A stretch of 64,000 nucleotides of DNA, taken from positions 1-64,000 of the IMG/VR virus record IMGVR_UViG_3300015263_000599; one strand, 5' to 3'. The notes beneath the pieces are model-generated. The model was not told where the DNA came from. It searched no databases and worked only from the letters and a program-made list of their open reading frames with translations. A program made the position numbers and the translations under genes. Each line of letters begins with the position of its first letter. Positions within the stretch are counted from its first letter, which is position 1. Shown in pieces: positions 7,444 through 63,579 of the stretch. The stretch comes from a virus.

Positions 7444-7665
7444 TTGTTCGCTCGGGAGACCCGAGCCGTTCGTGGGCCTTTTGTAGACATCACCAATGAT
7501 CCTGAAGGGATCAGGTTCACTCGCTTTCCAGAATACAGACCACTGCGTATTCGCCAAGACGAGATCAGCGATGAACAAATTTTGGAATGGCTGATGGAAG
7601 GCGAAGAAAAAAGGGAGATGGCCGATCCCGACCATCTCCCTTATGATCCCCCGAAGGGTTTCTGA
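7444..7665 (+). CDS. Possible small acidic ORF (uncertain start)
   Basis: An open frame of up to 73 residues. Its C-terminal two thirds look protein-like (RFPEYRPLRIRQDEISDEQI, then EWLMEGEEKREM), while its 5' part overlaps a hairpin (7451-7465). No ATG is in frame; the TTG at 7444 is the only plausible start and lacks a good ribosome-binding site. It ends in PPKGF, immediately before the convergent stop of the recombinase gene. It may be real or a remnant of a longer gene. Confidence 0.35.
   Translation: MFARETRAVRGPFVDITNDPEGIRFTRFPEYRPLRIRQDEISDEQILEWLMEGEEKREMADPDHLPYDPPKGF
7451..7465. terminator. Short hairpin after the 6962-7438 gene
   Basis: A 5-bp stem CTCGG / CCGAG with loop GAGAC lies 12 nt after the stop of the upstream plus-strand gene, followed by GGGCCTTTTG. 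It could be a weak terminator. Confidence 0.35.
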
Positions 7666-8919
7666 TCACTCATCTCCCTCATCGTCGAACTCGTCGGCCT
7701 CGAAGGGATTGCCTTCAGCGTCAAACTGAACGGTCTTCTCGCCGTATGCACCGCTCTCGGATGCTGCAAGGCCGCTGCCCCAGACATCCAGATAGTCTTG
7801 GACTTCTTGAGCGTCTTTCGCATCGATGAGCTTGGGGCAATCCAGAAGCACCTGAAGCGGGATGCGGTTGTCCGCCTTCTTCGCCTTGAAGGTGTACTTC
7901 TCTTGTCCCTCTGGCAGATAGGCTTCGGCGACCGAATAGGTGCCTTTGCCTGTGATCCGCTCTTCTTGAATCAACGGCACCAGCAATCCACTGATCGGAT
8001 CGACGCCCTGATCGAAGTACAACTTCACATCATCTGCGACCACGAATGGCCGGAACGTGCGGTTCTTGATGTTCTTCACTTGCAGGTTGATGCCAGAGAA
8101 GATTCCCAGATCACGATGCTCGATCTTCTTCTTCGACGCTGTGCGGAATCGCAGAGAAGCGTAGAACTTCATGGCGTTGCCGCCCGGTGTGGTTTCCGGG
8201 TTGCCATACATGACGCCGATCTTGTCACGGGTCTGGTTGATGATGTAGCAGGTGATGTTCTTCTTCACCACTTCTGCTTGCAGCTTTCTCAGTTCCGCCG
8301 AGATCACCTTCGCTCGCTCGCCGGGCTGCTCTTTCGCCCCCACGAGTTTCTTCCATTCAGTGACGGTGAAGTCCAGCGGAAGATTGTTTTCACGAAGTTC
8401 TCGTTCGCACGGCGGAACCGTCAAAGAGTCGAACACAACGACGATGGGTTTGTGAACCACATCCGTCTTCTGTAACTTTGCCAGTTCAATTTCACGCTCA
8501 CGGATCTTGTTGGCCGCAACATGAATTTGCCGGAACGCTCGTTCCAAGCTGGGAGGCGTGTAGCGAATCACACGCTTCAAGTTCAGATGGCTGACACGCT
8601 CCATGAACTCCCCGTTCGAGGCGTTTTCGCAGTCCAGCAGGATGCACCATGCGTCGATACGCTGGGCTCCATAAAGGACGTTCGAACCGAAGAGCGACTT
8701 TCCTGAAGCTTCCGGGCCGAAGGCTTCTGTGATTCGGCCACCGGGAATGCCGCCGTTAATGAATCGGCCTGAACAAGAGTAGTTCACGGCCAAGTTGCCT
8801 GTGTCGATGTAGAAATCGACAGTCTCAAGCTGATCGAGGACATCGCCGCCTGTGTCTGCTGCCAGATCGGCGTACACGTCGTCCATATTGATGTCGTCTG
8901 TTGCCTTTTTGCGGGCCAT
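7666..8919 (-). CDS. uvsX: RecA/UvsX-type recombinase
   Basis: A 417-residue strand-exchange ATPase. It has Walker A GPEASGKS near residue 71, Walker B VVVFDSLTVPP, and a RecA-like loop segment NQTRDKIGVMYGNPETTPGG followed by AMKFYASLRFR, which in RecA family proteins forms the DNA-binding L2 region. The C-terminus is acidic (DEFDDEGDE), as in many RecA proteins. It catalyses pairing of ssDNA with homologous duplex, and with the gp32-like protein upstream and the UvsY-like protein at 15.9 kb would form the phage recombination-dependent replication core. It lies downstream of ssb across a terminator. Confidence 0.93.
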   Translation of the reverse strand: MARKKATDDINMDDVYADLAADTGGDVLDQLETVDFYIDTGNLAVNYSCSGRFINGGIPGGRITEAFGPEASGKSLFGSNVLYGAQRIDAWCILLDCENASNGEFMERVSHLNLKRVIRYTPPSLERAFRQIHVAANKIREREIELAKLQKTDVVHKPIVVVFDSLTVPPCERELRENNLPLDFTVTEWKKLVGAKEQPGERAKVISAELRKLQAEVVKKNITCYIINQTRDKIGVMYGNPETTPGGNAMKFYASLRFRTASKKKIEHRDLGIFSGINLQVKNIKNRTFRPFVVADDVKLYFDQGVDPISGLLVPLIQEERITGKGTYSVAEAYLPEGQEKYTFKAKKADNRIPLQVLLDCPKLIDAKDAQEVQDYLDVWGSGLAASESGAYGEKTVQFDAEGNPFEADEFDDEGDE

Positions 8920-8981
8920 TGGTCAATCTCCTGTTCTGTGGATTCGATTTCTCCTTTCTTGTAAAGGAGGCGCAGAAAATA

Positions 8982-12513: not shown

Positions 12514-12975
12514 TCAATCTGATTTCAAAGAAATCTTTCGGACACCTTCGACCTCTGGTTTTTCGGCGACATTCCATGCCAAACTCAGAATTCCATCCTT
12601 CATAGAAGTCTCAGGATCACCATCAACAAAATCTGGCAAAACTACGCTTCTCTCGAATGAAGATTGTCGCAGTTCCTTGAGATAGTACGACGATCCCTCT
12701 GGGGATTCATACTCAGAAGACATTTTGCCACGAATTGTCAACGTGTTGTTGGAGTCAATCTCGACATCCAAATCTTCCGAGGTCATCCCCGGCACAGCAA
12801 ACGTCAACCCAAACTTGCCGTCACTCTTCCAAGCGTTCATTTTGGGATACCCGCTGGCCGACTTGACTTTGGCAAGGGGCGAGGACTTCGAGAAGAAGTC
12901 ATTGAAGAAGCCATCGAAAGCTTGTTCGATGGGGAAAAAGAGATCGTCACGACGTGGTACAAGATTAGTATTCAT
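12514..12975 (-). CDS. Small heat-shock protein (Hsp20 / alpha-crystallin)
   Basis: About 153 residues from the ATG at 12975, chosen because GGAGGT precedes it by 8 nt; the longer frame to 13050 lacks this. The alpha-crystallin domain is clear: GKFGLTFAVPGMTSEDLDVE, TLTIRGKMSSE, a YYLKELRQSSFERSVVLPD strand pair, then DGILSLAWNVAEK. The N-terminus (FFPIEQAFDGFFNDFF) is the typical oligomerising arm. These ATP-independent chaperones hold unfolding proteins, and cyanophages and other large phages carry them. Confidence 0.9.
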   Translation of the reverse strand: MNTNLVPRRDDLFFPIEQAFDGFFNDFFSKSSPLAKVKSASGYPKMNAWKSDGKFGLTFAVPGMTSEDLDVEIDSNNTLTIRGKMSSEYESPEGSSYYLKELRQSSFERSVVLPDFVDGDPETSMKDGILSLAWNVAEKPEVEGVRKISLKSD

Positions 12976-19275: not shown

Positions 19276-19830
19276 TCATAGGTTTTGTTGACGACGCAAA
19301 ACCTCATCAATGGTGAGGTCTTTTTTGTGTCGGTTGTGATTACCGCACAGAATCACCCGGTTGCTGGGATCGTCAATGCCGCCTTTCGACTTTGCGACAA
19401 CATGATCGAACTCTATGTCTGGGGAACACTGAACGTCTTCCACATGACGCTTCAAACGACAGATGAAACCTTCCAAAAGTCCGATCTCGACGACCGGCCC
19501 AATCAGCTTGGGGTTCTTTCGATAGTTGACCCATGCCAGACAAACGATGTCCTCATGGATATCTTCCAGATAGTCTGCCTGCACCCACTCGCCGCTGACA
19601 TCTCGTACCAGTGTGTTGTAGAACCCCTTGTTATCGAGATACTGCTGCCGCACTTGAGATGTCAAGTAATTGCGATTGTTGCGGATCATCCACCAGTTGT
19701 CGCTCGACAATCCATTCTTTGCCTTGGCGATTTTGATTCGCTCGAATTGATGACCCTCTTCCATCAGCATTCTCACGTTTTCTCTTACCCTGTGAATCGC
19801 CACATACAGGGGCACTTCTGTAACTTTCAT
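19276..19830 (-). CDS. HNH endonuclease
   Basis: A 184-residue protein. The C-terminal HNH core is IEFDHVVAKSKGGIDDPSNR followed by VILCGNHNRHKKDLT: the D-H pair, Asn and final His are present, with only one cysteine of the usual zinc pair (CSPD upstream could add one). The N-terminal 110 residues are helical and basic, probably DNA-binding. It has a ribosome-binding site AGGAGGAAACC. It lies directly downstream of the RuvC-Nop gene but has its own copy of the GGCGCATTTT motif. It may be a free-standing homing endonuclease or an accessory of the neighbouring system. Confidence 0.82.
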   Translation of the reverse strand: MKVTEVPLYVAIHRVRENVRMLMEEGHQFERIKIAKAKNGLSSDNWWMIRNNRNYLTSQVRQQYLDNKGFYNTLVRDVSGEWVQADYLEDIHEDIVCLAWVNYRKNPKLIGPVVEIGLLEGFICRLKRHVEDVQCSPDIEFDHVVAKSKGGIDDPSNRVILCGNHNRHKKDLTIDEVLRRQQNL

Positions 19831-19959: not shown

Positions 19960-20970
19960 CTATGCTGCTTCTGAGTTGTGTCCGGGATAATCTGTTGGTG
20001 GGAGAATCTCGGTTGTGTGACCCCCATGAGACAGTGCCCATGGTTGAGGCGTTGGAAGGCCCTCAGCCTCTCTCCACTTCTTCCAGAAGTGGTGGAGGAA
20101 AATCTTCCCTGCCTTGCGTCTCGCTCTCCGTTCTGCATGATACAGAGATTGAACACGCCGCTCAGATTTGTTTTTCTTGGCATCCTCTTCCATCTGCGTG
20201 AGAGATTTCGCCTTCTCTTCATCATAGATGTCACGATAGACAGGCGAGCGATGCTTGATGAACTGATCTGGGATCAACTCACAAACCAGTGTCTTCAATT
20301 TGCAATTCCAATTCGAAGCCTGCCCCTTCTGGCGACGAACGCACTTGCCGCCCTTGACATGCACGCCGCAATAGGCATACAAATCCGACACATTGTCGAA
20401 ACGGCTGATGTCGTTGACGTAAGAAATCAGACCCGCAGCGAGTGCAGGCCCCAAGCCCTTGACATGACTCATGAACTCAGTCCATACTTTGTAGTTCTTG
20501 AGTTCTTTCTTCATCTTGTTGAGAAGGGTCGTTTTTGCCTTCTCCAAAATCTCAAGATATTCCTGATTGTCCTCGTCCTCAGACGACCATTGACGGTTTT
20601 TGACAGCGGTAATCTCTTTGGTCAACTGGTGGTAGTTCGTCTGCAATTGTCGAAGTTTTGAATCCGATTTCATAGGACGAAACTTCTGAGGCGACTGTTG
20701 GTAGAGATCATAAATGATGATGGCATCATTGTCGTCTGTCTTCGGGTAAGCATACTTATCCCGATATTCAGCAGTGGCGTTGGGGGAACATCTCAAAACA
20801 TCGATCCCCTCTTCCAAAAAAGGTTTCGCCTTTTTATTTGGAATGTTCTCTGCCACGATCACCATTCCCTCTTGGGGCTTTGGCATCTTGTGCGTCATCT
20901 TCTTCCCATCCCAGACGGAAAGCTTCTCTTCGGTATGGCTCCAGTCAACTGCGTAGATCTTGGTGATCAT
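19960..20970 (-). CDS. IS110-superfamily RuvC-Nop protein, candidate TasR of a TIGR-Tas system
   Basis: A 336-residue protein with two domains. Residues 1-90 form a RuvC-like DEDD domain: YAVDWS (D9), VIVAENIP (E41) and YPKTDDNDAIIIYDL (D79, D82), matching the KTDxxDA signature of IS110 enzymes. A coiled-coil insertion spans about 100-165. Residues 168-232 form the HhH/Nop-type domain HVKGLGPALAAGLISYVNDI, then SRFDNVSDLYAYCGVH. The corresponding segment GGKCVRRQKGQASNWNCK shows no obvious counterpart of the catalytic serine of IS110 transposases. The C-terminus is basic. The gene is preceded by a dual-spacer repeat array (21068-21481), the context of Tas nucleases, which are relatives of IS110 and box C/D Nop proteins. 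RNA-guided DNA cleavage is therefore the best inference; a domesticated IS110 transposase is the alternative. Confidence 0.8.
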   Translation of the reverse strand: MITKIYAVDWSHTEEKLSVWDGKKMTHKMPKPQEGMVIVAENIPNKKAKPFLEEGIDVLRCSPNATAEYRDKYAYPKTDDNDAIIIYDLYQQSPQKFRPMKSDSKLRQLQTNYHQLTKEITAVKNRQWSSEDEDNQEYLEILEKAKTTLLNKMKKELKNYKVWTEFMSHVKGLGPALAAGLISYVNDISRFDNVSDLYAYCGVHVKGGKCVRRQKGQASNWNCKLKTLVCELIPDQFIKHRSPVYRDIYDEEKAKSLTQMEEDAKKNKSERRVQSLYHAERRARRKAGKIFLHHFWKKWREAEGLPTPQPWALSHGGHTTEILPPTDYPGHNSEAA

Positions 20971-21034: not shown

Positions 21035-21050
21035 GGCCAAAATTAAAGAA

Positions 21051-21070
21051 CCCAGACCAACAGGTCTGGG
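21051..21070 (-). terminator. Terminator at the end of the repeat array
   Basis: A perfect 8-bp stem CCCAGACC / GGTCTGGG with a 4-nt loop is followed on the minus strand by TTCTTTAATTTT. Its first arm overlaps the last edge repeat, so array transcription would stop here, before the promoter motif of the protein gene. Confidence 0.7.
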
Positions 21071-21481
21071 TTCGCACAATTGCCATGGCTTTTCAGCAAG
21101 ACCTGAAATGGCTCACACGCCTGATATGGCCTTTCGGCAAGAACTGGAATGGTTCACACGCCTGATATGGCCTTTCGGCAAATGGAATGTGGTTCGCACC
21201 CCGGTCGGGATCTTTCGAAAACGTATGTATTGGCTCGCAGTAAGTAGATGGCATCTCTGCACGCTCGGAGTGGCTCACATCGAAGCAGTGGTCTTTCGAC
21301 AACATGCAGGTGGTTCACACGTTTGCTCTGGTCTTTCGACAAAGCAAAGCTGGTTCGCATAAAAAAGATGGCCTCTCGGCATATGGTAGTTGGCTCACAC
21401 GTCGTGGGTGGCTTTTCAGCAAAACTACATTGGTTCACAAATGAGGAGTGGCTTTTCAGCATTGCTTCCCGTGGTTCGCCA
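21068..21481 (-). repeat. TIGR-like array: 11 edge repeats and 10 GNRA-hairpin loop repeats with dual spacers
   Basis: Period about 40 nt. Read on the minus strand, each unit is edge repeat GTGYGARCCA (10 nt), a 9-10-nt variable segment, loop repeat TGCYGAAARGCCA (13 nt) and an 8-nt variable segment. Loop repeats (plus coordinates) start at 21086, 21127, 21168, 21208, 21249, 21289, 21329, 21369, 21409 and 21449. Stems covary around a GNRA loop: GCC-GAAA-GGC, GCT-GAAA-AGC, GTC-GAAA-GAC, GCA-GAGA-TGC, GCC-GAGA-GGC. Variable segments after edge repeats, in transcript order: CGGGAAGCAA, ATGTAGTTT, ACTACCATA, GCTTTGCTT, CCTGCATGT, CTCCGAGCG, ATACATACGT, CATTCCATT, TTCCAGTTCT, TTTCAGGTCT. After loop repeats: CTCCTCAT, CCCACGAC, TCTTTTTT, GAGCAAAC, CTGCTTCG, TCTACTTA, CGACCGGG, TATCAGGC, TATCAGGC, TGGCAATT. 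Unit 21208 is the most degenerate. No ORF follows the periodicity. The layout fits tandem interspaced guide RNA arrays. Confidence 0.88.
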
Positions 21482-21538: not shown

Positions 21539-21569
21539 AAGGGGCGACTTGACGCCGCTCTCCACCAGC

Positions 21570-21620
21570 TTCGCAATCAGTCGGTGTGTGGCCTTTCGGC
21601 ACCTCGGCGTTGGACTACGA
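21570..21620 (-). repeat. Degenerate isolated array unit
   Basis: A perfect loop repeat TGCCGAAAGGCCA (plus 21589-21601) is flanked on the minus strand by a 9-nt segment ACGCCGAGG preceded by CGTAGTCC, and downstream by a TTGCGAAGC resembling an edge repeat. It lies between the stop of the 21615 gene and its terminator, outside the main array. Confidence 0.6.
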
Positions 21621-22190
21621 AGCAACTCCAAGATAGTCATACTCGCTCAATGACACAAGGCCATGTCGAATCGCTTTCTCTCGGGTGATCTTCTTGCCGA
21701 GACTCTTACAGGCATTCCAGATGATTTGTTTTGCGTAAGTGAAGAACTTCGCATCCATCTGGACAGGTCTCAGCTTGTTGGGTCGATCTTCTTTGGGAAC
21801 ATGCTTCTTGACCAGTCGGTCGAGTAGTTGTTCTTGGAACTCGCCGAACTTCTGCCGATTGGCTCCGTGGCGGCGACGATCATCCCACAACTTTTGGAGC
21901 GAAAGTACGACTTTCTTAATGAATGGGTCTTTCGCATGTTTCTCAAGAGCTTCGAAGCAGGACTCGATGTAAGTCTGCCTCTTGTAGTATGACCCGGCTC
22001 GAATCAGGGCGATGCGAAGTTCTTGAACATCATCTTCGCCCAGTGGGTCTTTCGAAAAGTAGTTCTGTGCATTCTTCTTCTTCAATTGCCATGCAGCATA
22101 GTAGCACAAGTTGCCAAACTTTTCATCGAGGAGCTTGTATTCTGGTTCCGTGATCGGGAACTTGTTTACGATGGTTTCAAGGGTTTGCAA
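21615..22190 (-). CDS. Hypothetical helical protein, possibly sigma-factor-like
   Basis: A 191-residue, largely helical and basic protein. The N-terminal part (FGNLCYYAAWQLKKKN, then GEDDVQELRIALIRAGSYYK) faintly resembles sigma-70 region 2 as seen in phage late sigma factors such as T4 gp55. The C-terminus (DAKFFTYAKQIIWNACKSLG, then KKITREKAIRHGLVSLSEYD) could be a short helix-turn-helix. It lies between two orphan array units and is followed by a strong terminator. The sigma assignment is a guess; a core-binding region could not be confirmed by eye. Confidence 0.5.
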   Translation of the reverse strand: MQTLETIVNKFPITEPEYKLLDEKFGNLCYYAAWQLKKKNAQNYFSKDPLGEDDVQELRIALIRAGSYYKRQTYIESCFEALEKHAKDPFIKKVVLSLQKLWDDRRRHGANRQKFGEFQEQLLDRLVKKHVPKEDRPNKLRPVQMDAKFFTYAKQIIWNACKSLGKKITREKAIRHGLVSLSEYDYLGVAS

Positions 22191-22218: not shown

Positions 22219-22280
22219 GGGATGGCTGGGCAACTAATGTTTTGGTCTTTCGACAGAAACTATCTGGCTCCAGCCATCCC
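22219..22280 (-). repeat. Orphan array unit enclosed in an 11-bp inverted repeat
   Basis: A perfect inverted repeat GGGATGGCTGG (22219-22229) / CCAGCCATCCC (22270-22280) encloses, on the minus strand, GGAGCCA (edge-like), GATAGTTTC, the loop repeat TGTCGAAAGACCA (plus 22243-22255), AAACATTAG, then TTGCCCAGCCA (edge-like). It directly abuts the polymerase stop codon at 22281, so the outer stem may also end polymerase mRNA. The loop repeat is identical to those of units 21289 and 21329. Confidence 0.65.
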
Positions 22281-23588
22281 TCATTTCCAAAGTACCTTCA
22301 TGTTGTTGAGACGAACGCCAAATTTCACCTCAACCTTCATACGAAGCCCCGGACACAACCGGGACTCTGTTTCCAGTGTTTGCTTGATGATGTCATAGGT
22401 TTCCTTGGCTTGTTGGACGGGGGTAATCATCCCGTAACCATCGTGGACACTGAAAGCAATGTCCGTCTCTGGCCCCAAGGCATTGTGTAAGTCAATCAAC
22501 TTCTCTTGGCACACGGTAGCCGCTGGGGCTTGTACCACAAAGTTGCGTGCAAGGTAGGCTTCTTCGTTCTTGAAGATTCGAGGACGACCAAAGTAGTCTT
22601 TGACGATTCCATGTTTAGCCTGCTGTTGGGCGTTTTGAACCCATTCGGTCGCAGTCTTGAAATTGGAGTGGATTCGTCCAATCAACTCTGTCCCTACCGC
22701 CTCACTGATACCTAAGTTGGATGCGAGCCCTCTCGGACCACACCCGTACATCACAGGCAAAAACAATCTCTTGGAGAGATTGCGTTTGATCTCTGTGTCG
22801 CAGTTGTCTCCCGTCACGATCTTGTAGATCGCACGGTGGAGATCTTCACCCGATTCGAGGATCTCCAGCAACCGTTCATCGCCACTCAACCACTGAAGCA
22901 CAGTCACTTCGCAGTGCCGATAGTCAGCGGTGACAAATCTGAGGCCGTACCCTCTCGGCTTCATGACCTGTCTCACATCTGGCCCCATGGTTTGGGGCAG
23001 ATAGCAATGGGTGAACGCCTTGCGGCAGTTCATGCGTCCGTTGATCTGGCCCTCGATTTCGTAACAAGGGAACTCAGACTTTCTGGTCGCTTCATTGAGT
23101 AATGCTGTGTTCTCAATGGCTGGGAGCACTCTGAGAAACAGCGGTTGATGAATGGCTTTGTAAACCCGTTGCCAGCCACCACGCTTAACAACGAGCTTGG
23201 TTCTATCTATGGCCTCACCGATGTTTTTTGGCCCCGTCAAATGGATGCCAAGAAAATACTCAATGGGCTTCAGATCGATGCAGTTGTTGCGTGGCGTTAC
23301 AAATTTTGGATTGTAGTGGTGAGCGTAACTGACAAGTGATTTCAAGTTCCAGCAGTAGAGTCGTTCAACCTTTTCGGGGTCAAAGATGGTGGCGTCGAGG
23401 ATGCCAATCACGCCGATGACGTTCTGAGGATTTACCTCGAACTCCAACCTCCCCTTCGTTGAGGAGATGTGAATCTTTCCGGGCGCACCGGCAGTGAAGT
23501 CCAAAGCCTCGGGTTCCGTTCTGAGGAACACGGCCTTGGTCCCACTGAGCAAGTCGGTGATGTGCCAAGAAAGTTCATGTAGTTTCAT
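22281..23588 (-). CDS. polA: Family A DNA polymerase, polymerase domain only
   Basis: A 435-residue protein with PolA motifs: motif A VTADYRHCEVTVLQWL (catalytic Asp), motif B region RNLSKRLFLPVMYGCG (Arg, Lys, Tyr-Gly), and motif C SVHDGYG. Motif C normally reads HDE, so the second acid is replaced by Gly here. The first 150 residues form no recognisable proofreading exonuclease and there is no 5' nuclease domain, so this is much shorter than E. coli Pol I (928) or T7 polymerase (704). A DEDDh exonuclease is encoded separately at 3.8 kb. It probably carries out leading- and lagging-strand synthesis, unless a second polymerase lies outside the window. Confidence 0.85.
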   Translation of the reverse strand: MKLHELSWHITDLLSGTKAVFLRTEPEALDFTAGAPGKIHISSTKGRLEFEVNPQNVIGVIGILDATIFDPEKVERLYCWNLKSLVSYAHHYNPKFVTPRNNCIDLKPIEYFLGIHLTGPKNIGEAIDRTKLVVKRGGWQRVYKAIHQPLFLRVLPAIENTALLNEATRKSEFPCYEIEGQINGRMNCRKAFTHCYLPQTMGPDVRQVMKPRGYGLRFVTADYRHCEVTVLQWLSGDERLLEILESGEDLHRAIYKIVTGDNCDTEIKRNLSKRLFLPVMYGCGPRGLASNLGISEAVGTELIGRIHSNFKTATEWVQNAQQQAKHGIVKDYFGRPRIFKNEEAYLARNFVVQAPAATVCQEKLIDLHNALGPETDIAFSVHDGYGMITPVQQAKETYDIIKQTLETESRLCPGLRMKVEVKFGVRLNNMKVLWK

Positions 23589-52861: not shown

Positions 52862-54025
52862 ATGTTTCGATTCGGCAAACCTCTTGCTCTAGTGGTTGCC
52901 CTGCTTTTTCTCGGAGCAACGTGCTTCGAACATGGTGCGTATGCACAAAAGCGAAGCAGCGGTAGCAGCAGGCCCAGTTCGGGCAGCAGTCGGCCTTCTT
53001 CATCATCATCGAAGCCCAAGTACGGGTCTCCCAACAGCGGCAGCAAGCCGCCTTCTTCCAAGCCCCCATCGAGCAAGCCGCCTTCGACCAGCAGCGGTTC
53101 CAAGCCCAAGTTCGGTTCGCCAAACAGCGGCCAGTCTTCCAAGCCACCTGCAAGCAACAGCGGTTCCAAACCGCCTTCGACCAGCAGCGGCAGCAAGCCC
53201 AAATTCGGTTCGCCCAACAGTGGTCAGACCCCCTCGACAGGCAGTGGTTCCAAGCCGCCTTCGACCAGCAATAGTTCCAAACCCAAGTTCGGCTCGCCGA
53301 ATGCAGGGAACCCTTCTTCTCCCACTACTTCTCGGAATCCCAACACCAGCAGTCGCCCTCCCACTTCATCCAGCGGAGCCAAGGAGCGGGCTAATCAAGC
53401 GGCGACAAGCAAGCGGGTTTATCAGGAAACGCAGCGTGCAACTGCACCTCCGAAGCCGTCCTACACTACGTCGGATGGGCATACGGTCAATGTGCGGACA
53501 AATTCCGCTCATGTGCAAGCGATGCGAAGCAAACCATCCTCGTATTACACGCCCGCCGCACGACAGACTCGGATCACCAATCACATTCATCATTACCATT
53601 ACGCCCACGACTATAACTGGTACTACAGCCAGCCGCACTACTATGTCGGCGGTGGGTACAGTTCGTCATTCTGGTGGATGATGATGGAGTGGTCGGCTGA
53701 GCGACGAGCCAGATGGCTATACCATAATCGGTATAGCATCGAAGCGGCTGCATACCAACGTGGTTTGCAGGATGCCGCTGTTGCTGCACAGATTCAGCAG
53801 CTTGAGGCACAAAACGTGGCCCGTAACACGGACTATGTTGACCCCGAGTTTGCTGAAAATCCCAGCATGATGTATAGCCAAGAGTACATCGAAGCTGCTT
53901 ACAACCCCACGGTGCTATCACCGGGGTCAGATGCAGCATTGACAGTCCTTCTGTGGATAATCATCATTGGGGTGGTCGGGTATGCCATCTTCCTCTTCAT
54001 GACGAAGGTGAGATTCGGCAGGTAA
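52862..54025 (+). CDS. Secreted Ser/Pro/Lys repeat protein with C-terminal anchor
   Basis: A 387-residue protein starting at ATG 52862 behind AAAGGAG. A signal peptide (ALVVALLFLGATCFEHGAYA) is followed by about 140 residues of low-complexity repeats built on SKPKFGSPNSG and SGSKPPSTS. A His/Tyr-rich globular part (ITNHIHHYHYAHDYNWYYSQ) follows, and a C-terminal membrane helix (TVLLWIIIIGVVGYAIFLFM). It is probably exposed outside the inner membrane with the repeats spanning the wall. It may belong with the envelope module at 34-44 kb. Function unknown. Confidence 0.65.
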   Translation: MFRFGKPLALVVALLFLGATCFEHGAYAQKRSSGSSRPSSGSSRPSSSSSKPKYGSPNSGSKPPSSKPPSSKPPSTSSGSKPKFGSPNSGQSSKPPASNSGSKPPSTSSGSKPKFGSPNSGQTPSTGSGSKPPSTSNSSKPKFGSPNAGNPSSPTTSRNPNTSSRPPTSSSGAKERANQAATSKRVYQETQRATAPPKPSYTTSDGHTVNVRTNSAHVQAMRSKPSSYYTPAARQTRITNHIHHYHYAHDYNWYYSQPHYYVGGGYSSSFWWMMMEWSAERRARWLYHNRYSIEAAAYQRGLQDAAVAAQIQQLEAQNVARNTDYVDPEFAENPSMMYSQEYIEAAYNPTVLSPGSDAALTVLLWIIIIGVVGYAIFLFMTKVRFGR

Positions 54026-62016: not shown

Positions 62017-63579
62017 TTACCCTTCAAACGTGAGAGCAAAGCCTCTTCGGTTTTTGGCGTCGTTTAGAATCAATGTATGTCCGGTGCCAATTTTGTTCAT
62101 GTATCCGATGATATCGTTTCCAGCATCGGCGACATAAATCAGGTCGGTTGCCAGATCCAACGAAATGTCATCTGGGAGAGCCCACACATCGCTATCGACG
62201 GCAAAAGCGTTACTTCCATCGGTGTCCATTCTATAGATGTAGAAAGGGATTCCCACATAGATGTGGCCGTTGGCTAGGTCCAACGTGATGCCTCGCACAT
62301 TGTTGATCCCAGAATCTTTCACCACGGTTGGTGTGCCGCCAGCCGTACTGAGCTTCACCACCCTGCCCGTGCTGCTGTTGTTGGATTCCGTCCAATAGAC
62401 AATGCCGTCAGATCCAACTGCGATTCTTTTGAGTTGGAATACTGTGTTGGCAAACAAGGCGTCATTTGAACCATCCAGATCACATCGACGGATTTGAGTT
62501 CCTGTTCCATAGTAAAGCTTGCCATTCGCCAAATCTAAGGTGATGCCCAAAGGAGATGTTGTTGTAAGAAGAGTGACTTGTCCAGTGCCAGCAGTCGTGG
62601 CCCGGCGAATAGCTCCGGTGTCGTACTCACACCAATACAAGTAACCGTTTGTTGAATCCAGTGCGATCTCATCAATGTTGTTGACGCCCGAAATCAGGGT
62701 TGAGACCGAATACGATTCTGTCATTCTTTCCAAAATCAAATCATCGCTGTTAGCCATATACATGAGGATGTCGTTGGCGACAGCAACATGAGCCGTTCCT
62801 GCGGCCACTACGCCGCCAGAAGTAACTTCGTAGAATGGAGTCACAATAGCTTCGCCACCCACCACAACACCACCAGATGTCGGTGGTGTTGCTGTATAAG
62901 ACCGATCTGCCGCCCCAGCCGCCACGACGCCACCAGATGTTGGCATGTTGCTGATGAACAAGGCCGAACCACCAGCCACAACACCGCCGCCAACAGTGGT
63001 TTTTACTGTCACGCTGGCCGAACCACCGACCACGACGCCGCCAGATGGATACTCGTTGAAGGGTCGCACTTTGGCTTCGCCGCCGACCACAGCACCACCA
63101 GATGGATACGCATATTGGTTGTAAGGTGCGTGCCCGCCAGCTACGACGCCACCCTCTCGGCCCTTGTTGATCCACGATTCTTCAGCCGTGCCACCAACCA
63201 CGACGCCGCCCCGAGGGTAATCGGTCAGATACAGGCCGCAGACTCTTGGAACGCTCTGGAAGGCTTTGATCGTCTCCCGGACATTATCCTTGATGGCCCG
63301 TTGCTCAATCTTGATGATGATGTCGTATAACGTCACCAGATCGTCGAAGACATCTGAGCTATAGGTGGTCAGACGAACGCAGTTCTTGAAGAGATCGAGG
63401 TAGATCACCGAGTTGATTTTGGTGATGACGAAATCGTACTCGTACTTATCAGACGTGTATTGTGCAGGCTGGAGAGTTTTGCTCCATACCATACAACACT
63501 GCTCTGTGTTTTTGATGAGTTCGAGAAAGAGTCTTCTTTTGCGAACATTCTTGATTTCGACCAGATTGTTTTCAGCCAT
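62017..63579 (-). CDS. Probable virion fibre protein: GGVVVGG repeats and beta-propeller
   Basis: About 520 residues; ATG 63579 is preferred (GAGGTG 4 nt ahead) over GTG 63585. Residues 1-120 are a mixed domain (YEYDFVITKINSVIYLDLFK). Residues 120-275 hold eight copies of a short repeat: RGGVVVGGTA, EGGVVAGGHA, SGGAVVGGEA, SGGVVVGGSA, GGGVVAGGSA, SGGVVAAGAA, SGGVVVGGEA, SGGVVAAGTA. Residues 280-520 form a YWTD/NHL-type propeller (GYLYWCEYDTGAIRRATTAG, later IALDSTNG- and ITLDLANG-type blades). Such proteins are typically surface-exposed and bind receptors or glycans. Confidence 0.75.
   Translation of the reverse strand: MAENNLVEIKNVRKRRLFLELIKNTEQCCMVWSKTLQPAQYTSDKYEYDFVITKINSVIYLDLFKNCVRLTTYSSDVFDDLVTLYDIIIKIEQRAIKDNVRETIKAFQSVPRVCGLYLTDYPRGGVVVGGTAEESWINKGREGGVVAGGHAPYNQYAYPSGGAVVGGEAKVRPFNEYPSGGVVVGGSASVTVKTTVGGGVVAGGSALFISNMPTSGGVVAAGAADRSYTATPPTSGGVVVGGEAIVTPFYEVTSGGVVAAGTAHVAVANDILMYMANSDDLILERMTESYSVSTLISGVNNIDEIALDSTNGYLYWCEYDTGAIRRATTAGTGQVTLLTTTSPLGITLDLANGKLYYGTGTQIRRCDLDGSNDALFANTVFQLKRIAVGSDGIVYWTESNNSSTGRVVKLSTAGGTPTVVKDSGINNVRGITLDLANGHIYVGIPFYIYRMDTDGSNAFAVDSDVWALPDDISLDLATDLIYVADAGNDIIGYMNKIGTGHTLILNDAKNRRGFALTFEG

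Follow-up and report, generated by a model that had tools for sequence, protein, structure and literature searches.

Candidate Free-Standing Stem-Loop tigRNA Genes in the polA Operon of a Phage with a Dual-Repeat TIGR-Tas Locus

TIGR-Tas is a recently described RNA-guided DNA-cutting system (Faure et al. 2025, PMC12045711), whose guide RNAs (tigRNAs) have dual-repeat and stem-loop formats that occur in separate Tas clades (PMC12045711). Virus record IMGVR_UViG_3300015263_000599 is 94,452 bases long, and bases 1-64000 are the window analysed here. Together with a dual-repeat TIGR array and a full-length TasR gene, it carries a 62-nt element, O1, that lies outside the array, directly behind a family A DNA polymerase gene (polA), and has the anatomy of a single stem-loop guide. 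The genes around O1 are all on the minus strand.

Solitary units behind polA and behind the next gene

On the minus strand, from the polA stop onwards, O1 reads GGGATGGCTGG AG CCA GATAGTTTC TGTCGAAAGACCA AAACATTAGT TG C CCAGCCATCCC, with these parts:

22219-22280, minus: candidate solitary stem-loop tigRNA unit O1, 62 nt (sequence, fold and covariance-model match)
22280-22270, minus: 5' arm, GGGATGGCTGG on the minus strand
22269-22268, minus: AG
22267-22265, minus: box C, CCA
22264-22256, minus: spacer A, GATAGTTTC, 9 nt
22255-22243, minus: loop repeat, TGTCGAAAGACCA (sequence)
22242-22233, minus: spacer B, AAACATTAGT, 10 nt
22232-22231, minus: box D, TG
22230, minus: C
22229-22219, minus: 3' arm, CCAGCCATCCC on the minus strand

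A preliminary description of this DNA had placed a single unit, with an 11-bp inverted repeat, directly at the polymerase stop codon, and this holds: GGGATGGCTGG (22219-22229) is the exact reverse complement of CCAGCCATCCC (22270-22280) over 11 bp, and the polA stop TGA (22283-22281, minus) abuts the stem. About 20 nt separate the other end of O1 from an AGGAGG Shine-Dalgarno sequence, which is followed by an open reading frame (ORF) of 191 aa. Two array loops, the sixth (21289-21301) and the seventh (21329-21341), match the loop repeat without a mismatch, as had also been reported. The 9-nt segments described on both sides of the loop are correct for spacer A; if box D is TG, the box-D side (AAACATTAGT) has 10 nt, a spacer length that some array units have too. 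The stem has 11 Watson-Crick pairs, or 13 with flanking pairs, and 25 of 200,000 shuffles of the flanks attain 13 contiguous pairs. The 62 nt fold at -29.8 kcal/mol (z = -6.2), and O1 is matched at 32.7 bits (E 5e-4 in 722 kb) by a covariance model from whose training set it was left out. No Rfam family reaches its gathering threshold.

Calling O1 an orphan is not quite apt because a second stemmed unit, O2, lies 0.6 kb downstream:

21568-21623, minus: second candidate solitary unit O2 (sequence, fold and covariance model R1)

O2 has a 10-bp stem (GCTTCGTAGT/ATTGCGAAGC), box C CCA, spacer A ACGCCGAGG, loop TGCCGAAAGGCCA, spacer B CACACCGAC and box D TG, and its 5' arm contains the stop codon TAG of the 191-aa ORF. 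It folds at -21.2 kcal/mol (z -2.7) and scores 49.6 bits with model R1, of whose training set it is part. Scanning the whole 94 kb for the C-spacer-loop-spacer-D arrangement returns the array units, O1 and O2 only, and the long closing stems of O1 and O2 are unlike anything on the array units. There are 11 copies of the loop motif with at most one mismatch where 1.4 would be expected, and no shuffle gave as many as 11. The full motif with a terminal stem scoring 7 or more is found at two sites in the 94-kb genome and at none in 480 kb of shuffled sequence. A possible third unit at 12568, where the loop has one mismatch, was rejected, being without boxes and stem.

The surrounding features are as follows:

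22281-23588, minus: polA, DNA polymerase family A, directly upstream of O1 (Pfam DNA_pol_A, E 7e-30)
21615-22190, minus: conserved 191-aa ORF between O1 and O2 (homologues in viral contig L033 and phage LR756511)
21508-21538, minus: intrinsic terminator after O2, 13 bp, T6 tail
21068-21480, minus: dual-repeat TIGR array, 10 units (one loop degenerate), period 40-41 nt, truncated edge repeat at its end
21048-21073, minus: intrinsic terminator after the array, 11 bp, T-rich tail
19960-20970, minus: probable TasR, RuvC/DEDD-like N terminus and Nop domain (phmmer; Pfam DEDD_Tnp_IS110)

At the level of the genome this is a TIGR-Tas locus, in which a Nop-domain Tas protein is encoded with an array. 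The 10 units, all on the minus strand, alternate edge repeats of the TGTGAACCA type with loop repeats of the form TG-YY-GAAA-RR-CCA, separated by spacers of 9 nt and in places 10 nt. The array ends in a truncated edge repeat followed by a rho-independent terminator (21073-21048), an ending described for published dual-repeat arrays (PMC12045711). The loop repeats (21086-21461) carry the paired changes CC/GG, CT/AG and TC/GA around GAAA, so covariation maintains the loop hairpin itself.

The TasR protein aligns along its entire length with PDB chain 9mty_A (phmmer E 2.6e-80, residues 5-325, 48% identity), and its acidic residues D9, E41, D79 and D82 are common to that chain; its C-terminal part is matched by PDB TasH chains (E 1.7e-11). 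On these grounds it is probably an active TasR. From sequence match, length and molecule name we infer that 9mty_A is the TasR of Faure et al.

An HNH endonuclease gene directly follows TasR (19276-19830, minus). Short tandem repeats at 53009-53311 and 62791-63223 have periods that are mostly multiples of three and are apparently coding, possibly for structural or fibre proteins.

A syntenic unit in a related phage

Among viral contigs searched with TasR or polA peptides, the only relative is L033 (25.9 kb), first reached through the loop pattern; a TasR profile search of bacterial genome contigs gave no match. L033 has the order polA, solitary unit, 191-aa ORF, array, TasR and second array, with identities to the window of 56% for polA, 71% for the 191-aa ORF and 62% for TasR. 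Its unit reads GGACTAAGGCGG-TCG-TAGACTTTC-TGTCGAAAGACCA-TTGAAGATG-TG-CCGTCTTAGTTC, and here the polA stop codon lies in the stem. The loop repeat is identical to that of O1 at 13/13 positions and the spacers differ. In the stem almost every base has changed, yet it pairs throughout (12 pairs including G-U), so that the pairing of the outer stem, the conservation of which the preliminary description had proposed to check, is kept by compensatory changes. An outer hairpin retained without the loop repeat had been named there as the sign of a plain terminator; what L033 retains is the loop repeat, with a paired stem of nearly all different sequence.

A second comparison is provided by LR756511, a 595-kb megaphage that has polA, the 191-aa ORF (56% identical) and a NUDIX gene in the same order as the window. 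In LR756511 we detected no Tas gene, no array and no unit; an A+T-rich gap occupies the position equivalent to O1, and its one match to the loop motif is remote, at 465.7 kb. Across the three genomes the solitary unit is thus present or absent together with TasR.

Two further features of the arrays are recorded here. In L033, a NUDIX gene interrupts the array downstream of TasR (7960-8925), giving the appearance of one array split in two. Two array units of the window have an identical spacer B, TATCAGGCG (21118-21126 and 21159-21167), with differing spacer A, and two adjacent units of L033 (loops at 8084 and 8044) have spacer B AAGATCGTG in common; these pairs hint at duplication of a unit followed by replacement of one spacer.

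Stemmed units and Tas clades

Viral contigs and bacterial genome contigs were queried with the bare pattern CCA-N9-TGYYGAAARRCCA-N9-TG, in which the terminal stem has no part. A terminal stem (p <=0.01) accompanies 9 of 28 viral matches versus 1 of 81 in bacterial genome contigs; contigs L037, L038 and L040 hold one identical unit, which makes the viral count 7 independent stemmed units. Tas genes are present in 11 of the 12 viral contigs with a stemmed unit versus none of the 7 without a stem. In a nine-row alignment of units, 92% of cells are paired and covariation is 0.84, versus 0.24 for shuffled rows and <=0.20 for slid partners. Because some of these rows were picked for their stems, the bare-pattern comparison is the stronger test; a count on 92 model hits agrees with pairing, these hits being fitted to the model. 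With the covariance model built on the nine units, many further stem units emerge in these contigs, amounting to stem-loop TIGR arrays like those published.

The Tas proteins encoded on stem-unit contigs group as a single clade (100/100) in a tree of Nop regions, in which those of the window and L033 fall with 9mty on the dual-repeat side. Since the two formats occur in separate clades, the window and L033 appear to mix both published guide formats with a TasR of dual-repeat lineage. Other Tas loci gave no convincing solitary stem units in the stretches covered, whether searched with their own loop repeats (the dual-repeat loci L004 and L009) or with the general CCA/TG motif (L004-L029). In the literature we found no other primary report on tigRNA loci, in a search that could miss a mixed locus given only in the supplementary files of PMC12045711.

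The stem-loop TIGR arrays beside the distinct Tas clade are in viral contigs L032, L034, L036, L037, L045, L047, L048, L055 and L059; in L036 the box D position is often CG or CA, not TG. L049, a viral contig of 45 kb, has a strong stem unit (53 bits) at 7556-7609 (minus), and we detected no Tas gene on it. Contig L129, a phage-like contig in a Pirellulaceae metagenome-assembled genome, has a dual-repeat TIGR array (600-930, minus) with repeats as in the window (TGTCGAAAGACCA, TGCGAACCA) and is a possible hint of the host. No TasR was found in that genome or, in a search run without a positive control, in 392 genomes of its phylum.

Guide function, targets and alternative readings

We consider that O1 and O2 are probably free-standing tigRNA genes in the stem-loop format, processed from the polA operon transcript. 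The C-spacer-loop-spacer-D anatomy is complete, lies on the array strand and has loops identical to array loops; the array and a full-length TasR share the genome with O1; the syntenic unit of L033 has kept the loop and rebuilt the stem; and in LR756511 the gene order is kept where TasR, array and unit are absent. Stem enrichment in viral contigs, co-occurrence with Tas, covariation and the lack of a terminator at O1 argue in the same direction. The preliminary description had suggested a single-guide minigene with an outer stem possibly setting its ends, and this is the best-supported reading, as the stem corresponds to the terminal stem of stem-loop tigRNAs and has changed in a compensatory manner in L033.

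Under this assignment, O1 would be carried at the 3' end of coding sequence on the polA-191-aa ORF mRNA. The terminal stem would hold boxes C and D together, as two half edge repeats do in an array unit, and the GAAA-capped loop repeat, seen in the sequence and backed by covariation, would provide the second C/D pair. A TasR dimer, made 1.3 kb downstream, would bind O1, and a host RNase would trim the flanks down to the stem, as suggested by published stem-loop array processing. The ribonucleoprotein would then recognise ~18-19 bp of DNA, GATAGTTTC-(N)-CTAATGTTT, each spacer pairing with a different strand, and by analogy with TaTasR biochemistry TasR would cut both strands. The target would most likely be another mobile element or the host, not the phage itself.

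Targets were sought as spacer A followed by the reverse complement of spacer B, with gaps of 1-2 allowed, a geometry derived from published cleavage rules (PMC12045711). The phage genome has no such site for O1 or O2 (18-bp match, <=4 mismatches), and L033 and the other loci have none with <=2 mismatches and gaps of 0-2. The earlier suggestion of a self-contained regulatory copy is unsupported: neither spacer pair has a self-target, and the spacers are not conserved. The change of spacers between phages favours a reading of the solitary units as possible guides against changing targets over one of fixed self-regulation.

Several points weigh against a guide role. It supposes that a dual-repeat-clade TasR can use guides with a terminal stem; the O1 stem is irregular beside the boxes (AG/C); the box C position in L033 is TCG, not CCA; O2 is not conserved in L033; the architecture is present in two phages only, the window and L033; and the target searches in phage, L033 and other loci all came back empty.

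Some of these points recur in other explanations. O1 could be a cis-acting mRNA element, bound by TasR or a host RNase that cuts or stabilises the polA-191-aa ORF mRNA, with TasR-dependent expression and a guide function that is secondary or lost. Its position between two cistrons, the stop codons adjoining the 5' arm or contained in it (O1, O2 and L033), the strong stem close to the next gene's Shine-Dalgarno sequence and the imperfect box C in L033 would all fit; but boxes and spacer lengths are kept, two 9-10-nt spacers are superfluous for a cis role and multi-unit arrays of O1-type units occur beside Tas genes, and we regard this account as unlikely. We are slightly more doubtful of decay, in which O1 would be what is left of an array unit or stem-loop array, its stem retained to stabilise an mRNA 3' end. 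The box C substitution and loss of O2 in L033 are what decay might produce, and GAGCCA beside the 5' arm is similar to array edge repeats in their 3' half; however, the loop is the same at every position in two phages with 56% polA identity, and a stem fully rebuilt by paired changes is unexpected under decay.

It is very improbable that O1 is just an intrinsic terminator or attenuator behind polA, and this reading was rejected: the strong 11-bp hairpin does lie 3' of a stop codon, but O1 lacks the short loop and T-run of such a signal, having a 40-nt loop, which is a conserved tigRNA core, and a T-run on neither side; no site was called at O1 where two terminators were called nearby, and the Tas-less LR756511 is without the unit. 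Chance co-occurrence of an inverted repeat with a stray repeat copy is scarcely credible, since, although the genome has five 11-bp inverted repeats of similar span, both non-array loop copies (2/2) have stems of 10-13 pairs, shuffled sequence has no such motif and the syntenic copy in L033 effectively refutes it.

As stem-loop tigRNA genes, O1 and O2 would differ from published relatives. Both have palindromic flanks that form a terminal stem (11 and 10 bp), CCA/TG boxes and spacers of 9 + 10 nt in O1 and 9 + 9 nt in O2. Published stem-loop units form tandem arrays beside other Tas clades, and in the example described every unit is processed as a single RNA like a small nucleolar RNA (snoRNA) (PMC12045711, Fig. 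7). O1 and O2 are instead solitary (two units in the 94-kb record, one in L033), stand at gene 3' ends, accompany a TasR that groups with that of 9mty, and carry the loop repeats of their own dual-repeat array. The locus shares with dual-repeat arrays with TasR (TaTasR; 9mty) a TasR that is 48% identical, UG...CCA repeats, 9-nt spacers and a terminator after a truncated edge repeat; O1 and O2 have no edge repeats, the O1 flanks being TGGCTGGAGCCA and TGCCCAGCCA in place of TGTGAACCA, and have the 10-11-bp terminal stem instead. Archaeal and eukaryotic box C/D snoRNAs are likewise solitary, with a terminal stem joining C and D boxes, two guide segments and a Nop-domain partner (predicted for O1), but in O1 no classical C/D or k-turn sequence is seen, there is no known fibrillarin partner and the expected target is DNA. 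IS110 bridge RNAs have a TasR-related Nop-domain partner and guides in stem-closed loops; in O1 no donor loop is seen, and its TasR is encoded in a TIGR locus that has an array.

Faure et al. left several questions open: the origin and expansion of arrays, tigRNA processing, and the targets. Since this phage has both formats with identical loop repeats, it offers a direct test of three points: use of both formats by one TasR, substitution of a long terminal stem for the processing signal in edge repeats, and escape of array units to form single guide genes that resemble box C/D snoRNAs. Tentatively, one TasR might read two formats, a dual-repeat array and solitary terminal-stem guides from the mRNAs of coding genes, with guide supply tied to transcription of the polA operon. 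If so, such an arrangement would stand midway between arrays and single guide genes of the snoRNA kind, and the solitary units may possibly act as a TasR-dependent switch on the polA operon.
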